Below are positions 52,898-62,273 of a stretch of 64,000 nt of DNA, piece after piece. The position numbers and the translations under genes were made by a program. Below the pieces are notes generated by a model that ran no database searches, was not told where the DNA came from, and worked only from the letters and a program-made list of their open reading frames with translations. The DNA lies in NCBI GenBank assembly GCA_024684055.1, contig JAIKXN010000239.1, forward strand, positions 96,325 through 160,324, in the 5' to 3' direction. The DNA comes from Lachnospiraceae bacterium. Lineage in GTDB: Bacteria; Bacillota; Clostridia; Lachnospirales; Lachnospiraceae. Numbering within the stretch: position 1 is the stretch's first letter; each line of letters opens with the position of its first letter.

Positions 52898-55180
52898 ATG
52901 GATAAGAAACATTATAATATGATGGACTGGGAATCCATTGAAAGTATTGTATATGCGGACTGCGACAAGCCTTTTGAAATCCTTTCCGTTACAAAGAAAG
53001 GAAAATCAAAACTCATTCAGGCTTTTTATCCGAATGCCGAAAAAGTTTCTGCGGTTTTTAACTGCAATTCCAAAAACAAAACCGTCAAACTCGAAAAAGT
53101 AGACGAAAACGGATTCTTTGCGGAATTTATCGATTTTGAATTTGATTCTTATACATTTAAGATCGAATATGAAAATGAGATAAAAGACAAAGTTTACGAT
53201 CCTTACTTTTATCCCGTTTCGATAGATACGGCTGCTGTAAGAGATATAATAAAGGGAAAATCAAGAAACGCTTATAAGCATCTCGGAAGCCACAGAAAAA
53301 AATACGGCAATGTCGAAGGCTATGAGTTTACGGTCTATGCTCCCAACGCTTTATGCGTGGCGCTTGTCGGAGACTTCAATAATTGGGTTGAAAATGCCAA
53401 TCTTATGGAAAGGGATTCAAACGTAAAAGGTTTATTTAAACTTTTTGTACCCGGACTTGAAGATTACAGTGTTTATAAATATATAATCAACTGCAAGGGC
53501 AACAAAACATACAAACTCGATCCTTTTGCTCTCGGCATTGACGGCGATAACAGCGTATGTGTGCCTGCTTCTTTTGCCGACAGGAAACCACGAAAGGAAG
53601 AATGTCCTTCAGATCTTGAATTCCAGGTTCTTGAAGTCGACATAAACAATTTTTTCAAAAAATACAAAGATGAAAAAGCTGTTTTTGAATATCTTCACGA
53701 ACATGCTTTGAAATACAGCTATAATGCGATTTCATTTGTTCATCTTTTTAAATCGAATAATCCCAATGATGTTTATGAGATCATCAATCCTTATTCGCTT
53801 GATGTTTCTAACGGACTGACAACGGATAAGCTTAAAACTCTTATTCATAACCTCAAGGCTGCGGGAATTCTTTCATTTATCGAAATTCCTTTAGCTTACG
53901 CATCTGACTGTGAAAGCGGACTTGTAAACTTTGACGGAGCATGTCTTTTCGAGAATACCGATTCCAGACTTTCGTCGCATAAGTTTTACAAAGCGATGCT
54001 TTATGATTATACCTGTTCATTCACAAAATCATATCTGCTTTCTGCGGTAAATTATTACTTTAACGATTTTGATTTTAACGGTTACGTATTATCAAATGCC
54101 GGTGTGATCATTTATCATGATTACAATAAGAATCCCGGTGAATTTGTTACGGAACAGTGGGGCTCGACACTTCATTCGCAGGGTGTTTGTTTCATCCGGG
54201 AAGTTAACAGATACATTCACAAGGAATACAAAAATGCTCTGTGCATAGCAAGTATTTATGCTTATTACAAGGACGTTACCGGCAAGGGTACGGATTCTCT
54301 CTGCTTTGATTACTGCATGAATACAGGGGCGTGCGAAGAAATACTTGATTTCCTGAGACTTGATCCTTCTTTCAGAAGAGACAAACTTGATTCGTTTCTT
54401 CTCTTTACTCATTTCACGAATAATGATGAGAAATATATCTATCCTTATTCGAGAAAAGAAAATACAAAGGATTTTGCTTCGATTTACGACAAAATGCCCG
54501 GCGATAAGATTCAGAAACTTTCTAATCTTAAGATGGCGATCATCTTTAAACACCTTCTTTACGGCGCTCAGTATATCAATATTGATATTGATGAACTCGA
54601 AAGCGCTGACAATGATGTAAGAGAAGCATATAATAAGTTTTATGATGATTTCCGAAGAATTTATGTATCCAGCAGACACAGGATCAGAAATTTCAATGCT
54701 GAAAAACCTTTCAGTTACAAATGCATTGACAATCAGGTGTTTACAAGAGAATATTTTGACGGAACAAAAGATTTTATTATCGTATTTAACTTCTCGAATG
54801 ATTCTTATCAGAAATACAATATTCCCGTTTCTCATGCGGGCGTTTACAAAGAAGTATTCAACTCCGATTCAAAGGTTTATCTCGGAGAAGGGGTTGTCAA
54901 TGTAAAACAGATCCAGACCCAGGAATCGGAAGGAATGACGGAACATACGGTTACCGTAAAACTTCCTGCGCTTTCAATCGTAGCTTTTGAATACAGGGAA
55001 TTTACGCAAAAAGAACTTGATGCGATCTTCCTTAAGAAAAAGAAAGCTATGTACAAATATGTTGACGGAGAAAAGAAGAAAGTAAAAGACAAGCTAAATG
55101 CCGATATCGAGATTCTTAAGAAAGATGCCGATGAACGCATTAAGGAACTTGAAAAACTCCTTGAACCGTTTAATAAATAA
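52898..55180 (+). CDS. 1,4-alpha-glucan branching enzyme (GlgB)-like protein, predicted catalytically inactive
   Basis: CBM48-like GYEFTVYAPNALCVALVGDFNNW; GH13_8-like layout (TTDKLKTLIHNLKAAGILSFIEIPLAYAS...AGVIIYHD...CFDYCMN) with active-site residues replaced; Lys-rich C-terminal coiled coil. Confidence 0.8.
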   Translation: MDKKHYNMMDWESIESIVYADCDKPFEILSVTKKGKSKLIQAFYPNAEKVSAVFNCNSKNKTVKLEKVDENGFFAEFIDFEFDSYTFKIEYENEIKDKVYDPYFYPVSIDTAAVRDIIKGKSRNAYKHLGSHRKKYGNVEGYEFTVYAPNALCVALVGDFNNWVENANLMERDSNVKGLFKLFVPGLEDYSVYKYIINCKGNKTYKLDPFALGIDGDNSVCVPASFADRKPRKEECPSDLEFQVLEVDINNFFKKYKDEKAVFEYLHEHALKYSYNAISFVHLFKSNNPNDVYEIINPYSLDVSNGLTTDKLKTLIHNLKAAGILSFIEIPLAYASDCESGLVNFDGACLFENTDSRLSSHKFYKAMLYDYTCSFTKSYLLSAVNYYFNDFDFNGYVLSNAGVIIYHDYNKNPGEFVTEQWGSTLHSQGVCFIREVNRYIHKEYKNALCIASIYAYYKDVTGKGTDSLCFDYCMNTGACEEILDFLRLDPSFRRDKLDSFLLFTHFTNNDEKYIYPYSRKENTKDFASIYDKMPGDKIQKLSNLKMAIIFKHLLYGAQYINIDIDELESADNDVREAYNKFYDDFRRIYVSSRHRIRNFNAEKPFSYKCIDNQVFTREYFDGTKDFIIVFNFSNDSYQKYNIPVSHAGVYKEVFNSDSKVYLGEGVVNVKQIQTQESEGMTEHTVTVKLPALSIVAFEYREFTQKELDAIFLKKKKAMYKYVDGEKKKVKDKLNADIEILKKDADERIKELEKLLEPFNK

Positions 55181-56053: not shown

Positions 56054-56066
56054 ACTAAATTAAGTC

Positions 56067-56095
56067 TTGATTTAACTCGTTTTCATGGTTATAAT
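56067..56095 (+). promoter_or_regulatory. Promoter of tRNA-Thr
   Basis: TTGATT (56067-56072) N17 TATAAT (56090-56095). Confidence 0.7.
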
Positions 56096-57628: not shown

Positions 57629-57707
57629 AAAAATAATTGATTTTCGGAGTAAAAAGTTATATATATTATGATTAATCCGAATATCGGTTTTTATGGAGGA
57701 CAATGAT

Positions 57708-58793
57708 ATGAGTGACAAATTACGTGTTGGTATTCTCGGTGGTACGGGAATGGTAGGTCAGAGATTTATTTCTCTTCTTGAAAATCATCCCTGGTTTGAA
57801 GTTGTTTTAATCGCTGCTTCACCAAGATCAAAAGGCAAAAGATATGAAGATGCCGTAGGTGACAGATGGAAAATGACCACACCGATGCCTGAAGCCGTTA
57901 AAGATATGATCGTTTATGATGTTAATGAAGTTGAAGAGATTTCAAAGCTTGTTGATTTCTGCTTCTCGGCAGTAGACATGACGAAGGATGAGATCAGAGC
58001 AATAGAAGAAGCATATGCTAAAGCTGAAACACCCGTTGTTTCAAACAACTCTGCACACAGATGGACACCCGATGTTCCCATGGTAGTTCCCGAGATCAAT
58101 CCCGAACACATGAAAGTTATTGACGATCAGAGAAAGAGACTCGGAACAAAGAGAGGATTCATCGCAGTAAAGCCTAACTGTTCAATCCAGTCATATGCTC
58201 CTGTTCTTACAGCATGGAAAGAGTTTGAGCCTTACGAAGTTGTTGTAAGTACATATCAGGCAATTTCAGGTGCAGGCAAGACATTTAAGGACTGGCCCGA
58301 AATGGAGGGAAACATCATTCCTTACATCGGAGGCGAGGAAGAAAAGTCAGAAAAAGAGCCTTTAAGAATCTGGGGCAAGGTTGAAAACGGACAGATCGTA
58401 CCTGCAGACAACATCAAGATCACAAGCCAGTGCATCAGAGTACCGGTTCTTAACGGACATACAGCAAGCGTTTTCGTTAAATTCAAAAAGCAGCCCACAA
58501 AAGAACAGCTTATCGAAAAGCTTGTAAACTTCAAGGGACTTCCTCAGGAACTCAAGCTTCCTTCTGCTCCCTCACAGTTTATTCAGTATCTTGAAGAAGA
58601 CAACAGACCTCAGGTTACGCTTGACGTTGACTTCGAAAAAGGCATGGGTATAAGCGTTGGACGTATTCGTGAAGACAGCATTTACGACTGGAAATTCGTA
58701 GGTTTGTCACACAATACTGTAAGAGGCGCTGCAGGCGGTGCTGTACTTTGCGCAGAACTTCTTAAAACTCAGGGTTATATTACGAAAAAATAA
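57708..58793 (+). CDS. asd: Aspartate-semialdehyde dehydrogenase (archaeal/fungal-like subtype)
   Basis: LRVGILGGTGMVGQRFISLLENHPWFEV, VKPNCSIQSYAPVL, GAGKTFKDWPEM. Confidence 0.94.
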   Translation: MSDKLRVGILGGTGMVGQRFISLLENHPWFEVVLIAASPRSKGKRYEDAVGDRWKMTTPMPEAVKDMIVYDVNEVEEISKLVDFCFSAVDMTKDEIRAIEEAYAKAETPVVSNNSAHRWTPDVPMVVPEINPEHMKVIDDQRKRLGTKRGFIAVKPNCSIQSYAPVLTAWKEFEPYEVVVSTYQAISGAGKTFKDWPEMEGNIIPYIGGEEEKSEKEPLRIWGKVENGQIVPADNIKITSQCIRVPVLNGHTASVFVKFKKQPTKEQLIEKLVNFKGLPQELKLPSAPSQFIQYLEEDNRPQVTLDVDFEKGMGISVGRIREDSIYDWKFVGLSHNTVRGAAGGAVLCAELLKTQGYITKK

Positions 58794-58830
58794 AAAGCAA
58801 TAAATTATTATATATGTTTGGGGAATAATA

Positions 58831-60198
58831 ATGATTATTGGACGAAGTGCCGAAGTAGAATATTTGAATAAAATATTTGGTTCACCGGAAGGTTCGCTCG
58901 TAACTTTATACGGGCGGGCCGGTGTCGGCACTTCATCTGTCTGGCATGAATTCGTAAAAGACAAGAAATATATTTACATCAAATGTCCCAAGGCTTCCAG
59001 CAAGCAGATCAACTTTCTTATAGCCGGGGATTTATCGCTTAAAGGATTTGATTTCAACGATCCTTTTCCTTCGTTTTCAACGATTCTTGAATCCATTTAC
59101 AACAAATACAAACTTGATAAATTCGTTCTTGTACTGGATGATTTCGAGAACTGTTTCAAAGCTGACGATTCTTTTGTCAACGATATTTTTTCATATGCAA
59201 AATTAAATAAAAATGATAACAGATCGATGTGCCTCCTTGTTTCTCATGATACAAGGTATGTCGAGAATGCATTTATTTCGAAGATCGGGAAGAATGCACT
59301 TTCTTTAAACGGAATTTTAAAGATTCAGCCTGTTTCTTTTATCGATCTTGTTATGTATTATAATATCGAGGATACTTCGGTATGCATGGATTATTATGCA
59401 CTTTTGGGAGGAAATATCGGATTTTATTCATGTTTTGACAAGAAAGTTTCTCTTAAAGAGAATATTATAAACAATTTCCTTAAGCCTCATTCGGTATTCA
59501 GGCGTGCGGGAAATGACGTTGTGCTTGAATATTTAAGAGAAGTAAATGTTTACGCAACGATTCTTTACTGTCTTTCCAACGGACACAATAAATTAAACGA
59601 TATTTTCCTTCATACCGGTTTTTCAAGAGCAAAGATAAGCGTTTATCTTAAGAATCTTATGGCGCTTGATACGGTAGAAAAAGTTGCCAGTTTTGATACG
59701 CCCGGAAATGAAAATACAATGAAGGGCGTTTACAGGATTTCCAATCCCATAGTCAATTTCTGGTATAAATTTGTATATCCTCATGAATCTTATCTCGAGC
59801 TTATGCCTGCCGATAAGTTTTATGATACATTCATAAATGACAATATTTCCGATTTCTTAAAAGATACGCTTCCGCTTATCTGCAAGGAATATCTCAATCT
59901 TTTAAACAAGAAACACGGACTTCCCATTAAAGTTTCCAAATACGGAGAGTGGGTGGGCAAAGCCGGAACCATACATTATATCGGCAAAGATGAACACAGG
60001 AACATTCTTGCGGCTTACTGTGCGCTTGGTAACGAACCCTTGAATTATTCGGAATACGAATGGTTTGATTACTGCCTCAAAGAAGCAAGGATTAATCCGG
60101 ATTATATTTATCTTTTCTCCAAGAAAGGGTTTGATGAAGATCTTGAAGAAATGCTGACGGACAAAGAAGTCACTTATGTCGATATAAGAAATCTGTAA
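58831..60198 (+). CDS. Archaeal-type ATPase/DUF234 family protein with degenerate Walker A and nuclease-like motifs
   Basis: MIIGRSAEVEYLNKIFGSPEGSLVTLYGRAGVGTSSVWHEF, FVLVLDDFEN, winged helix, C-terminal YLFSKKGFDEDLEEML. Confidence 0.82.
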   Translation: MIIGRSAEVEYLNKIFGSPEGSLVTLYGRAGVGTSSVWHEFVKDKKYIYIKCPKASSKQINFLIAGDLSLKGFDFNDPFPSFSTILESIYNKYKLDKFVLVLDDFENCFKADDSFVNDIFSYAKLNKNDNRSMCLLVSHDTRYVENAFISKIGKNALSLNGILKIQPVSFIDLVMYYNIEDTSVCMDYYALLGGNIGFYSCFDKKVSLKENIINNFLKPHSVFRRAGNDVVLEYLREVNVYATILYCLSNGHNKLNDIFLHTGFSRAKISVYLKNLMALDTVEKVASFDTPGNENTMKGVYRISNPIVNFWYKFVYPHESYLELMPADKFYDTFINDNISDFLKDTLPLICKEYLNLLNKKHGLPIKVSKYGEWVGKAGTIHYIGKDEHRNILAAYCALGNEPLNYSEYEWFDYCLKEARINPDYIYLFSKKGFDEDLEEMLTDKEVTYVDIRNL

Positions 60199-60218: not shown

Positions 60219-62273
60219 ATGGCAAAAGCAGTTTATATTGCCGAAAAGCCTTCGGTAGCGAAGGAATTCGCAAAGGCTTTAAAAGAAAATTTTAAAAGTT
60301 CTGACGGTTATCTCGAAAGCGATAATTCCATAGTAACATGGTGTGTCGGACATCTTGTTAATATGAGTTATCCCGAAGAATATGACGAAAATCTGAAAAA
60401 ATGGTCATTCGACACAATTCCTTTTATTCCCGAAAAATATAAATATCAGGTTATTCCGAATGTTTCAAAACAATTTAAGATCGTAAAAGGCCTTCTAACA
60501 AGAGATGATGTGGACCGGATATATGTCTGCACCGACTCGGGAAGAGAAGGTGAATATATTTATCGCCTGGTTGAACAGCAGGCAGGTGTCAAAGGAAAAG
60601 ACAGACGCCGTGTCTGGATCGATTCCCAGACTGAAGAAGAGATTTTAAGAGGAATTCGCGAAGCGAAAGATTTAAGCGAATATGACAATCTTTCCGATGC
60701 TGCATATCTTCGCGCAAAAGAAGATTACCTTATGGGAATCAATTTTTCACGTGCTCTGACACTTAAATACGGTTACGGAATGAAAACCTTTTTAAAGGCA
60801 GACAGATGTGTTATCAGTGTCGGCCGTGTCATGACATGCGTTCTCGGAATGGTTGTCAGCCGAGAAAGGGAGATAAGGGATTTTGTAAAAACTCCTTTCT
60901 ACAGGGTTCTTGCTTCTCTTGATTTTAACGGAACTTTCTATGACGGCGAATTCAGAGCGGTCGAAGGCTCAAAGTATTTTGAATCGCCCTTGCTTTACAA
61001 GGAAAACGGTTTCAAAAAAGAAGAGGATGCGCTTAAACTCGTTGAGGAAGTGAAGGCGGGTGAAGGAAACGAATTTACTGTCTTTTCTATCGAAAAGAAA
61101 AAAGAAAAGCGCAATCCACCGATGCTTTACAACCTTGCCGATCTTCAGAATGACTGTTCAAAGTATTTTAAGATCGATCCTTCCAAAACTTTGAATTACA
61201 TTCAGGAATTATACGAAAAGAAACTTGTTACTTACCCGAGAACCGATGCAAGGGTTTTATCGAGTGCCGTTGCAAAAGAAATCCATAAGAATTTAAACGG
61301 TCTTAAAATCCATCCTTTATATGCTGATATAATTAAAGGCATTTTTGAATCGGGCACAGATAAAAAAATCGGTTCTACGAAATACACAAACGATAAGCTT
61401 ATTACGGACCACTATGCGATCATTCCCACAGGACAGGGATTCGAAAACCTGAAAAGCGTGGATGAAACATGTCTTCATATTTACGAAGTTATCTGCAGGA
61501 GATTCCTTGGCATTTTTCTGCCTCCGGCTGTTTATGAAAAGGACTCGCTTGTTGTGGAAAGAAACGGCGAGAAATTCTTTTCTTCATTCAAGGTTTTAAA
61601 AGAAGAAGGATTCCTAGGCGCAACAAAGTTTTCTTTTATTAAGAAGAAAGATAAAGACGCAGATGCCGATAATGACGAAGATGAGGAGAAAAGCAAAAAC
61701 GGCTCCGATTCGAAAGATGACGCCGAAGATGTTAAATGTTCCGAAGAAACACTTCAGTTTCTGGCAAAACTCAAAAAGGGCGATAAGCTTCCGTACAGTG
61801 AGATAAACATAAAAGAAGGCGAAACTTCACCGCCCAACAGATATAATTCAGGTACGCTTATCCGTGCTATGGAAAGTGCGGGACAGCAGATAGAAGATGA
61901 GGAATTAAGAGCCCAGCTTAAAGGCTCGGGAATCGGTACGTCTGCTACGAGAGCGGGAATCCTTGAAAAGCTCGTTAAAAACGGCTATCTGAAACTTAAT
62001 AAGAAAACGCAGATCGTCACACCGACTCTGCTTGGTGAAATGATCACCGATGCAGTTCATCTTTCGATCCCTTCGCTTTTGCATCCCAAACTTACCGCAA
62101 GTTGGGAAAAAGGACTTACCATGGTTGCAAACGGAGAAGTCAAAGAGAAAGATTACATGGAAAAACTAACAAAATACGTATCCGATTTTACAAATGACGT
62201 TAAGAAAAATGATTATAATTCAAAGCTTAACTCGAGATACAGACATATTTCGCAGTTTTACAAGCAAAAATAG
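60219..62273 (+). CDS. topB: DNA topoisomerase III (type IA)
   Basis: AEKPSVAKEFAKAL, CTDSGREGEYIYRLV, LVTYPRTDARVL, GIGTSATRAGILEKL. Confidence 0.95.
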   Translation: MAKAVYIAEKPSVAKEFAKALKENFKSSDGYLESDNSIVTWCVGHLVNMSYPEEYDENLKKWSFDTIPFIPEKYKYQVIPNVSKQFKIVKGLLTRDDVDRIYVCTDSGREGEYIYRLVEQQAGVKGKDRRRVWIDSQTEEEILRGIREAKDLSEYDNLSDAAYLRAKEDYLMGINFSRALTLKYGYGMKTFLKADRCVISVGRVMTCVLGMVVSREREIRDFVKTPFYRVLASLDFNGTFYDGEFRAVEGSKYFESPLLYKENGFKKEEDALKLVEEVKAGEGNEFTVFSIEKKKEKRNPPMLYNLADLQNDCSKYFKIDPSKTLNYIQELYEKKLVTYPRTDARVLSSAVAKEIHKNLNGLKIHPLYADIIKGIFESGTDKKIGSTKYTNDKLITDHYAIIPTGQGFENLKSVDETCLHIYEVICRRFLGIFLPPAVYEKDSLVVERNGEKFFSSFKVLKEEGFLGATKFSFIKKKDKDADADNDEDEEKSKNGSDSKDDAEDVKCSEETLQFLAKLKKGDKLPYSEINIKEGETSPPNRYNSGTLIRAMESAGQQIEDEELRAQLKGSGIGTSATRAGILEKLVKNGYLKLNKKTQIVTPTLLGEMITDAVHLSIPSLLHPKLTASWEKGLTMVANGEVKEKDYMEKLTKYVSDFTNDVKKNDYNSKLNSRYRHISQFYKQK

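Follow-up and report, generated by a model that had tools for sequence, protein, structure and literature searches.

What is the role of a protein that has the full architecture of an ATPase-nuclease while both of its active sites look degenerate? The question is raised by a gene at positions 58831-60198 of the window, the whole 64,000-nucleotide stretch analysed here, which belongs to a Lachnospiraceae MAG; most of the named genomes closest to it are MAGs from the rumen. An initial annotation had described an intact 455-aa ORF for a DUF234-type ATPase and proposed a repurposed regulatory or antidote-like role rather than decay. Here, X denotes this gene together with its Lachnospiraceae homologues, and "classical" denotes DUF234 ATPase-nucleases of the catalytic type. 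The ORF is indeed intact, with an ATG start and an upstream GGGG. The features of the locus are as follows.

57693..58793, + strand: asd (aspartate-semialdehyde dehydrogenase), the gene before X, assigned by Pfam
58820..58823, + strand: Shine-Dalgarno-like GGGG, found ahead of the X start codon in the majority of the 13 window-clade genomes
58831..60198, + strand: X, a 455-aa, putatively non-catalytic DUF234 ATPase-nuclease homologue; open ORF with an ATG start
58912..58938, + strand: degenerate Walker A motif GRAGVGTSS, with Lys34 replaced by Thr and Gly28 and Gly33 kept
59128..59151, + strand: altered Walker B motif LVLDDFEN, with Glu104 replaced by Asp; Glu104 occurs in 0/28 genus members and 38/38 classical proteins
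59521..59745, + strand: winged helix-turn-helix, residues 231-305, the best-conserved region of X
59617..59658, + strand: recognition helix GFSRAKISVYLKNL, with the derived invariant Arg266 and Lys268
59872..59874, + strand: nuclease motif-I Glu, replaced by Pro348; Glu in 38/38 classical proteins and 0/54 X
59974..59976, + strand: nuclease Asp, replaced by His382; CAT or CAC in 13/13 window-clade genomes
60016..60024, + strand: Y396-C-A398 in place of the nuclease E-x-K; no intact triad among X (0/98)
60219..62273, + strand: topB (DNA topoisomerase III family), the gene after X; Pfam Topoisom_bac 9.5e-98

Architecture and catalytic residues

The architecture of the classical proteins is retained over the full length. 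Alignment of X with the classical family by hhalign gave a probability of 100 and an E-value of 3e-102 over 459 columns, which is the full length, at 27% identity. The ATPase, winged-helix and nuclease-like domains are all present end to end, in the same order as in classical DUF234 ATPases (PF01637/PF13191 ATPase, winged helix and PF03008; PDC-S27). The Pfam DUF234 model (PF03008) matches residues 311-393 of window X (6.6e-9; 36.5 bits against a gathering cut-off of 22.5) and hits 54/54 X members scanned; Pfam matches of window X to ATPase and winged-helix models are sub-threshold only. Classical relatives match the archaeal Walker-type ATPases of PDB 2qen and 2fna over the ATPase and winged helix (E 1.5e-15 and 3e-14), whereas the X profile reaches 2qen at an E-value of only 0.005, and a PDB search with a single X sequence gave no direct match. 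The P-loop of 2qen, GxxxxGKS, is intact in its alignment with X, and the chains of 2qen and 2fna (about 350 aa) are too short for the nuclease-like domain. A restriction-endonuclease-like fold would be predicted for X by way of its classical homologues, whose profile reaches AF1548 (PDB 1y88, restriction-endonuclease-like) in the nuclease part at a weak E-value of 0.006. No paper describing the X branch was found in the open-access literature searched, where text matches to DUF234 were mostly to other DUF234x names.

Residues were compared between 54 X orthologues (alignment A1) and 38 classical DUF234 ATPases (alignment A2), joined by profile alignment. Codon 58930-58932 of window X is ACT, as first read, placing Thr34 where Lys stands in 39/39 classical proteins. 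This Walker A Lys is missing from all 28 X-bearing genomes of the window's genus, which carry T, I, V or L at position 34. The Walker B motif had been said to remain. Its Asp103 does, but the catalytic Glu104, present in 38/38 aligned classical proteins, is now Asp. Further ATPase residues that do not vary among the classical proteins (R30, R31, Q120, D124, P154 and R158) are all replaced in window X; R30/R31, Q120, D124, P154, G157 and R158 are rare or absent across X, the GKT-bearing members included. In DUF1703, another AAA-ATPase plus PD-(D/E)xK family, the Walker A arginines have been proposed as sensors (PMC1913061). What may be the equivalent arginines of classical DUF234 proteins are mostly lost in X. 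Judged by its residues, window X is not an active P-loop ATPase of the AAA/STAND type.

Such a protein might still act as a non-hydrolysing nucleotide switch, in which a P-loop devoid of Lys binds nucleotide and toggles the binding of DNA or a partner. Weak nucleotide binding may be conceivable because Gly28 and Gly33 are each present in 28/28 genus members; Ser/Thr35 is kept in 25/28, selection maintains Thr34 in the window clade, and Asp103 is found in 15/28. However, none of Lys34, the catalytic Glu and the classical R30/R31/R158 is left, the Walker B Asp has also been lost in other parts of the genus, and X persists in other lineages with a scrambled loop (GNTRSEKER, GHRNTAYKE). We therefore consider a nucleotide switch unlikely. 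In two other genera, g207 (L195-L200) and g153 (L191-L193), most or all species have a broken X P-loop, whose residues differ from one species to another, whereas Thr is constant in the window clade.

The nuclease part has fared no better. All four catalytic positions are replaced in window X (E348P, D382H, E396Y and K398A). Three of these substitutions had been proposed earlier, and profile alignment places them exactly at D382, E396 and K398; the degeneracy of both sites was real and had been understated, since Glu104 and the motif-I Glu are lost as well. The D382-E396-K398 triad is intact in 33/39 classical proteins and in 0/98 X. Thr34 and His382 are shared by 12 further species of the window clade, and position 396 is aromatic in all of them, so a sequencing or assembly slip is excluded. 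On these residues, X is not an active PD-(D/E)xK nuclease.

The two losses did not occur together. In a tree computed with the catalytic columns left out, X forms one clade (support 100), as does the genus (100). Because the triad is found in 0/98 X as against 33/39 classical proteins, the loss of the nuclease is placed at the root of X. An intact GK[ST] P-loop is found in 39/39 classical proteins, in 12/12 X of a branch linked to argS, in 35/58 topB-linked X outside the genus and in 0/28 genus members. The same tree implies at least 12 changes of P-loop state, and about 12 is itself an approximate figure because the tree is a quick one with many open forks. As read from these sequences, the P-loop broke later than the nuclease, repeatedly and in separate X lineages, and fully so in the genus. 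Contrary to the initial annotation, the double loss is thus not special to the window protein: the loss of the nuclease is shared by the whole family branch, and that of the P-loop is later and repeated.

Pseudoenzymes are usually encountered singly. The X locus provides a graded series from the intact classical enzyme, through a nuclease-dead form with a P-loop, to a form predicted to be dead at both sites, and this series is unusually complete. Its spread over at least 73 genera, with about a dozen P-loop changes, makes the route from a defence-like enzyme to a core non-enzyme testable, and could reveal which step frees X from ATP.

Locus, distribution and selection

The gene order is argH-asd-X-topB, on one strand throughout. 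X was found in 28/31 genomes of the genus and lies between asd and topB in 28/28. The three genomes in which X was not found (G010, G016 and G024) were considered as true losses and rejected as such: asd is absent from all three, topB is absent from two, and in the third it abuts a contig end. The assemblies therefore probably do not include this region. Of the 298 Lachnospiraceae genera sampled, at least 73 yielded X. Outside the Lachnospiraceae, there was no X-type protein among the matches examined, and the order-level matches examined were classical. An overly divergent, overlooked X in the X-less topB genomes was also considered, and a profile search of the gaps returned other genes or nothing.

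X could be an accessory subunit of topoisomerase III that binds or loads TopB, with the winged helix and the dead nuclease fold gripping DNA. Consistent with such a partnership, topB directly follows X in 80/99 loci (median gap 11.5 bp), even where topB identity is 45-51%. Of the 80 loci in which asd was found, nearly all have it at -1 or -2 upstream of X, a GGDEF-EAL protein sometimes intervening. However, asd and topB are also adjacent without X in L170, L172 and L184, so that X may simply have landed beside topB. In X-less genera, asd and topB are joined directly (24 bp apart in L172) or separated by the GGDEF-EAL gene alone or by unrelated genes, and most X-less genera have topB alone. The second X branch, moreover, follows argS rather than topB. 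A dedicated TopB partner therefore seems doubtful to us. In L191-L193, L198 and L200, the topB beside X is only 45-51% identical to the window TopB, and the P-loop of X is broken there.

The argS-linked sister branch (n=12: L133, L138, L142-L147, L150, L153, L155 and L158) contains the best X match of each of its genomes. It shares the winged-helix signature of X (Arg266 in 12/12) and has lost the triad (intact in 0/12). Unlike window X, it keeps an intact P-loop (12/12) and lies after argS. K398 is retained in 6/12 of its members despite the loss of the triad, and in 8 loci the argS-X pair is followed by a 435-aa protein with a P-loop of its own.

The gap between asd and X contains strong hairpins, unrelated in sequence, in the G002, G029, G013, G014, G012 and G018 loci; they are absent from the window, G025 and G008. 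These hairpins are possibly terminators with read-through. A search of the same gap recognised no conserved operator among the species compared.

The ancestry of the protein suggests another role, that of an antidote, decoy or inhibitor left over from a defence system and directed at an intact DUF234 ATPase-nuclease or at phage factors. The PADLOC model PDC-S27 is matched by window X (E 4.3e-15), by 54/54 scanned X and by 38/38 classical proteins, and a defence-like origin is therefore plausible. The antidote-like role of the initial annotation is nevertheless not supported. X is the only DUF234 gene of the window genome, in which the search for an intact paralogue found none and gave sub-threshold PF01637 matches only; an intact DUF234 paralogue is present in 0/13 window-clade genomes, the window genome included. 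The housekeeping locus is fixed and inherited in one copy, unlike that of defence genes. Classical DUF234 genes keep the GRRRVGKT, DE and D..ECK motifs and are scattered accessory genes, whereas window X has none of these motifs, carries Arg266 and occupies one fixed locus. Variable placement near defence or mobile genes was not what we found, the order argH-asd-X-topB being fixed in about 80 loci. An antidote or decoy thus appears highly improbable. To annotate the X branch as an "ATP-binding protein" or a defence candidate would be misleading.

The stepwise erosion of catalytic motifs across the tree could also mean that X is in slow decay, losing its sites singly on the way to a pseudogene. 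The rate of protein change argues strongly against it. In close pairs with unsaturated dS, the dN/dS of X is 0.018, 0.022, 0.032 and 0.033, as low as that of its neighbours in the same pairs (asd 0.014-0.053; topB 0.016-0.040), all being Nei-Gojobori estimates on five pairs from one subclade with one genome per species. In X itself, constraint is weakest in the ATPase-like part (0.083, as against 0.013-0.024 elsewhere), a point in favour of decay. No genus orthologue contains a stop codon, and all 28 genes are intact. The replacement residues themselves are conserved through synonymous churn. Across 13 window-clade species, Thr34 is encoded by ACT, ACC, ACA and ACG; Asp104 uses both Asp codons; Tyr396 uses both Tyr codons in 12 species, with Phe in the 13th; and Ala398 uses all four Ala codons in 12 species, with Tyr in the 13th. 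His382 is written mostly CAT in the 13 genomes. Since the replacements stay constant despite this turnover, they are kept by selection. Decay is thus extremely unlikely, and the earlier view of X as repurposed rather than decayed is supported.

Winged helix and proposed role

The constraint on X has shifted to its winged helix. Fifteen of the 22 invariant A1 columns fall within residues 231-305, where 3.6 are expected (p about 1e-7 if invariant columns are taken to be spread uniformly and the relatedness of the sequences is disregarded). Mean pairwise identity within X is lower than within the classical set in the ATPase core (0.32 vs 0.46) and higher in the winged helix (0.63 vs 0.47); outside these two regions the sets are about equal, and the whole-protein averages are 0.39 and 0.42. 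Six basic positions of the winged helix (K254, R266, K268, K274, K284 and K298) are each present in at least 94/99 X, and R266, K268 and K284 in 99/99. Arg266 is found in 0/39 classical proteins, and has therefore most likely been in place, without change, since X originated. The nearest classical relatives keep much of the winged helix too (LND..SKTSVYLKNL), so its conservation in X is partly inherited. Window X matches TrmB (0.0024) and HTH_5 (0.0085), both under the Pfam cut-off; among 54 X members, HTH_5 is matched by 26 (E<=1e-3) and the NCBIfam model MsvR by 17. X therefore has both a recognisable winged helix and a conserved basic recognition helix, as is the case for winged-helix DNA-binding regulators. 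The regulatory half of the original proposal is plausible on this evidence, the concentration of invariant columns above all.

At the level of sequence, X is a protein that has kept its fold over the full length and its place in the genome, has lost its catalytic residues, is under strong purifying selection and has had its constraint moved to the winged helix. On balance, we favour X as a domesticated non-catalytic protein that acts through its winged helix, most likely as a DNA-binding regulator. The sequences show that a DUF234-type ATPase-nuclease lost its nuclease residues in the common ancestor of one branch of the Lachnospiraceae, and that ATPase residues were lost afterwards, completely in the window's genus. 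X would then work without ATP turnover or DNA cleavage. The winged helix would bind DNA, and the dead ATPase and nuclease folds may serve as a scaffold for dimerisation, ligand binding or a non-cleaving grip on DNA. Its likeliest role would be to regulate transcription or the chromosome, perhaps with the asd-X-topB operon that contains it as the target. A fuller history is offered more tentatively: a defence-type ATPase-nuclease may have been captured once by the Lachnospiraceae and stripped of both activities to become a DNA-binding protein of the core genome whose recognition helix has a new Arg, the use of ATP then being lost repeatedly because energy was no longer needed.

Other observations near X

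A palindrome, TTAARTCNNGAYTTAA, is conserved upstream of tRNA-Thr/argH, with 12 genomic sites against 2 in a reversed control. An imperfect palindrome, TTAAGTCTTGATTTAA, lies at window positions 56060-56075 (+), overlaps the tRNA-Thr promoter and occurs in almost every upstream region seen from the window clade. Some copies of TTAARTCNNGAYTTAA are extended as GTTAAATCNNGAYTTAAC between genes, for example near a class II aldolase-like gene. The palindrome looks like a putative regulator site. TTAARTCNNGAYTTAA was considered as an operator for X and set aside, as several of its sites are intragenic and nothing links it to X.

Four genes upstream of X, at 52898-55180 (+), the window encodes a GlgB-like protein with GlgB_N, CBM_48 and alpha-amylase C domains. 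In region II it has FNGYVLSNAG in place of the DGLRVDA found in the other GlgB of the genome (contig C79), and the region of the AEES Glu reads IASIYA. Relatives at the same locus have lost the Asp to a varying degree, and one from another genus (L097) keeps DGIRMDA. From these motifs, the GlgB-like protein looks like a dead enzyme, and thus like a second pseudoenzyme lineage.
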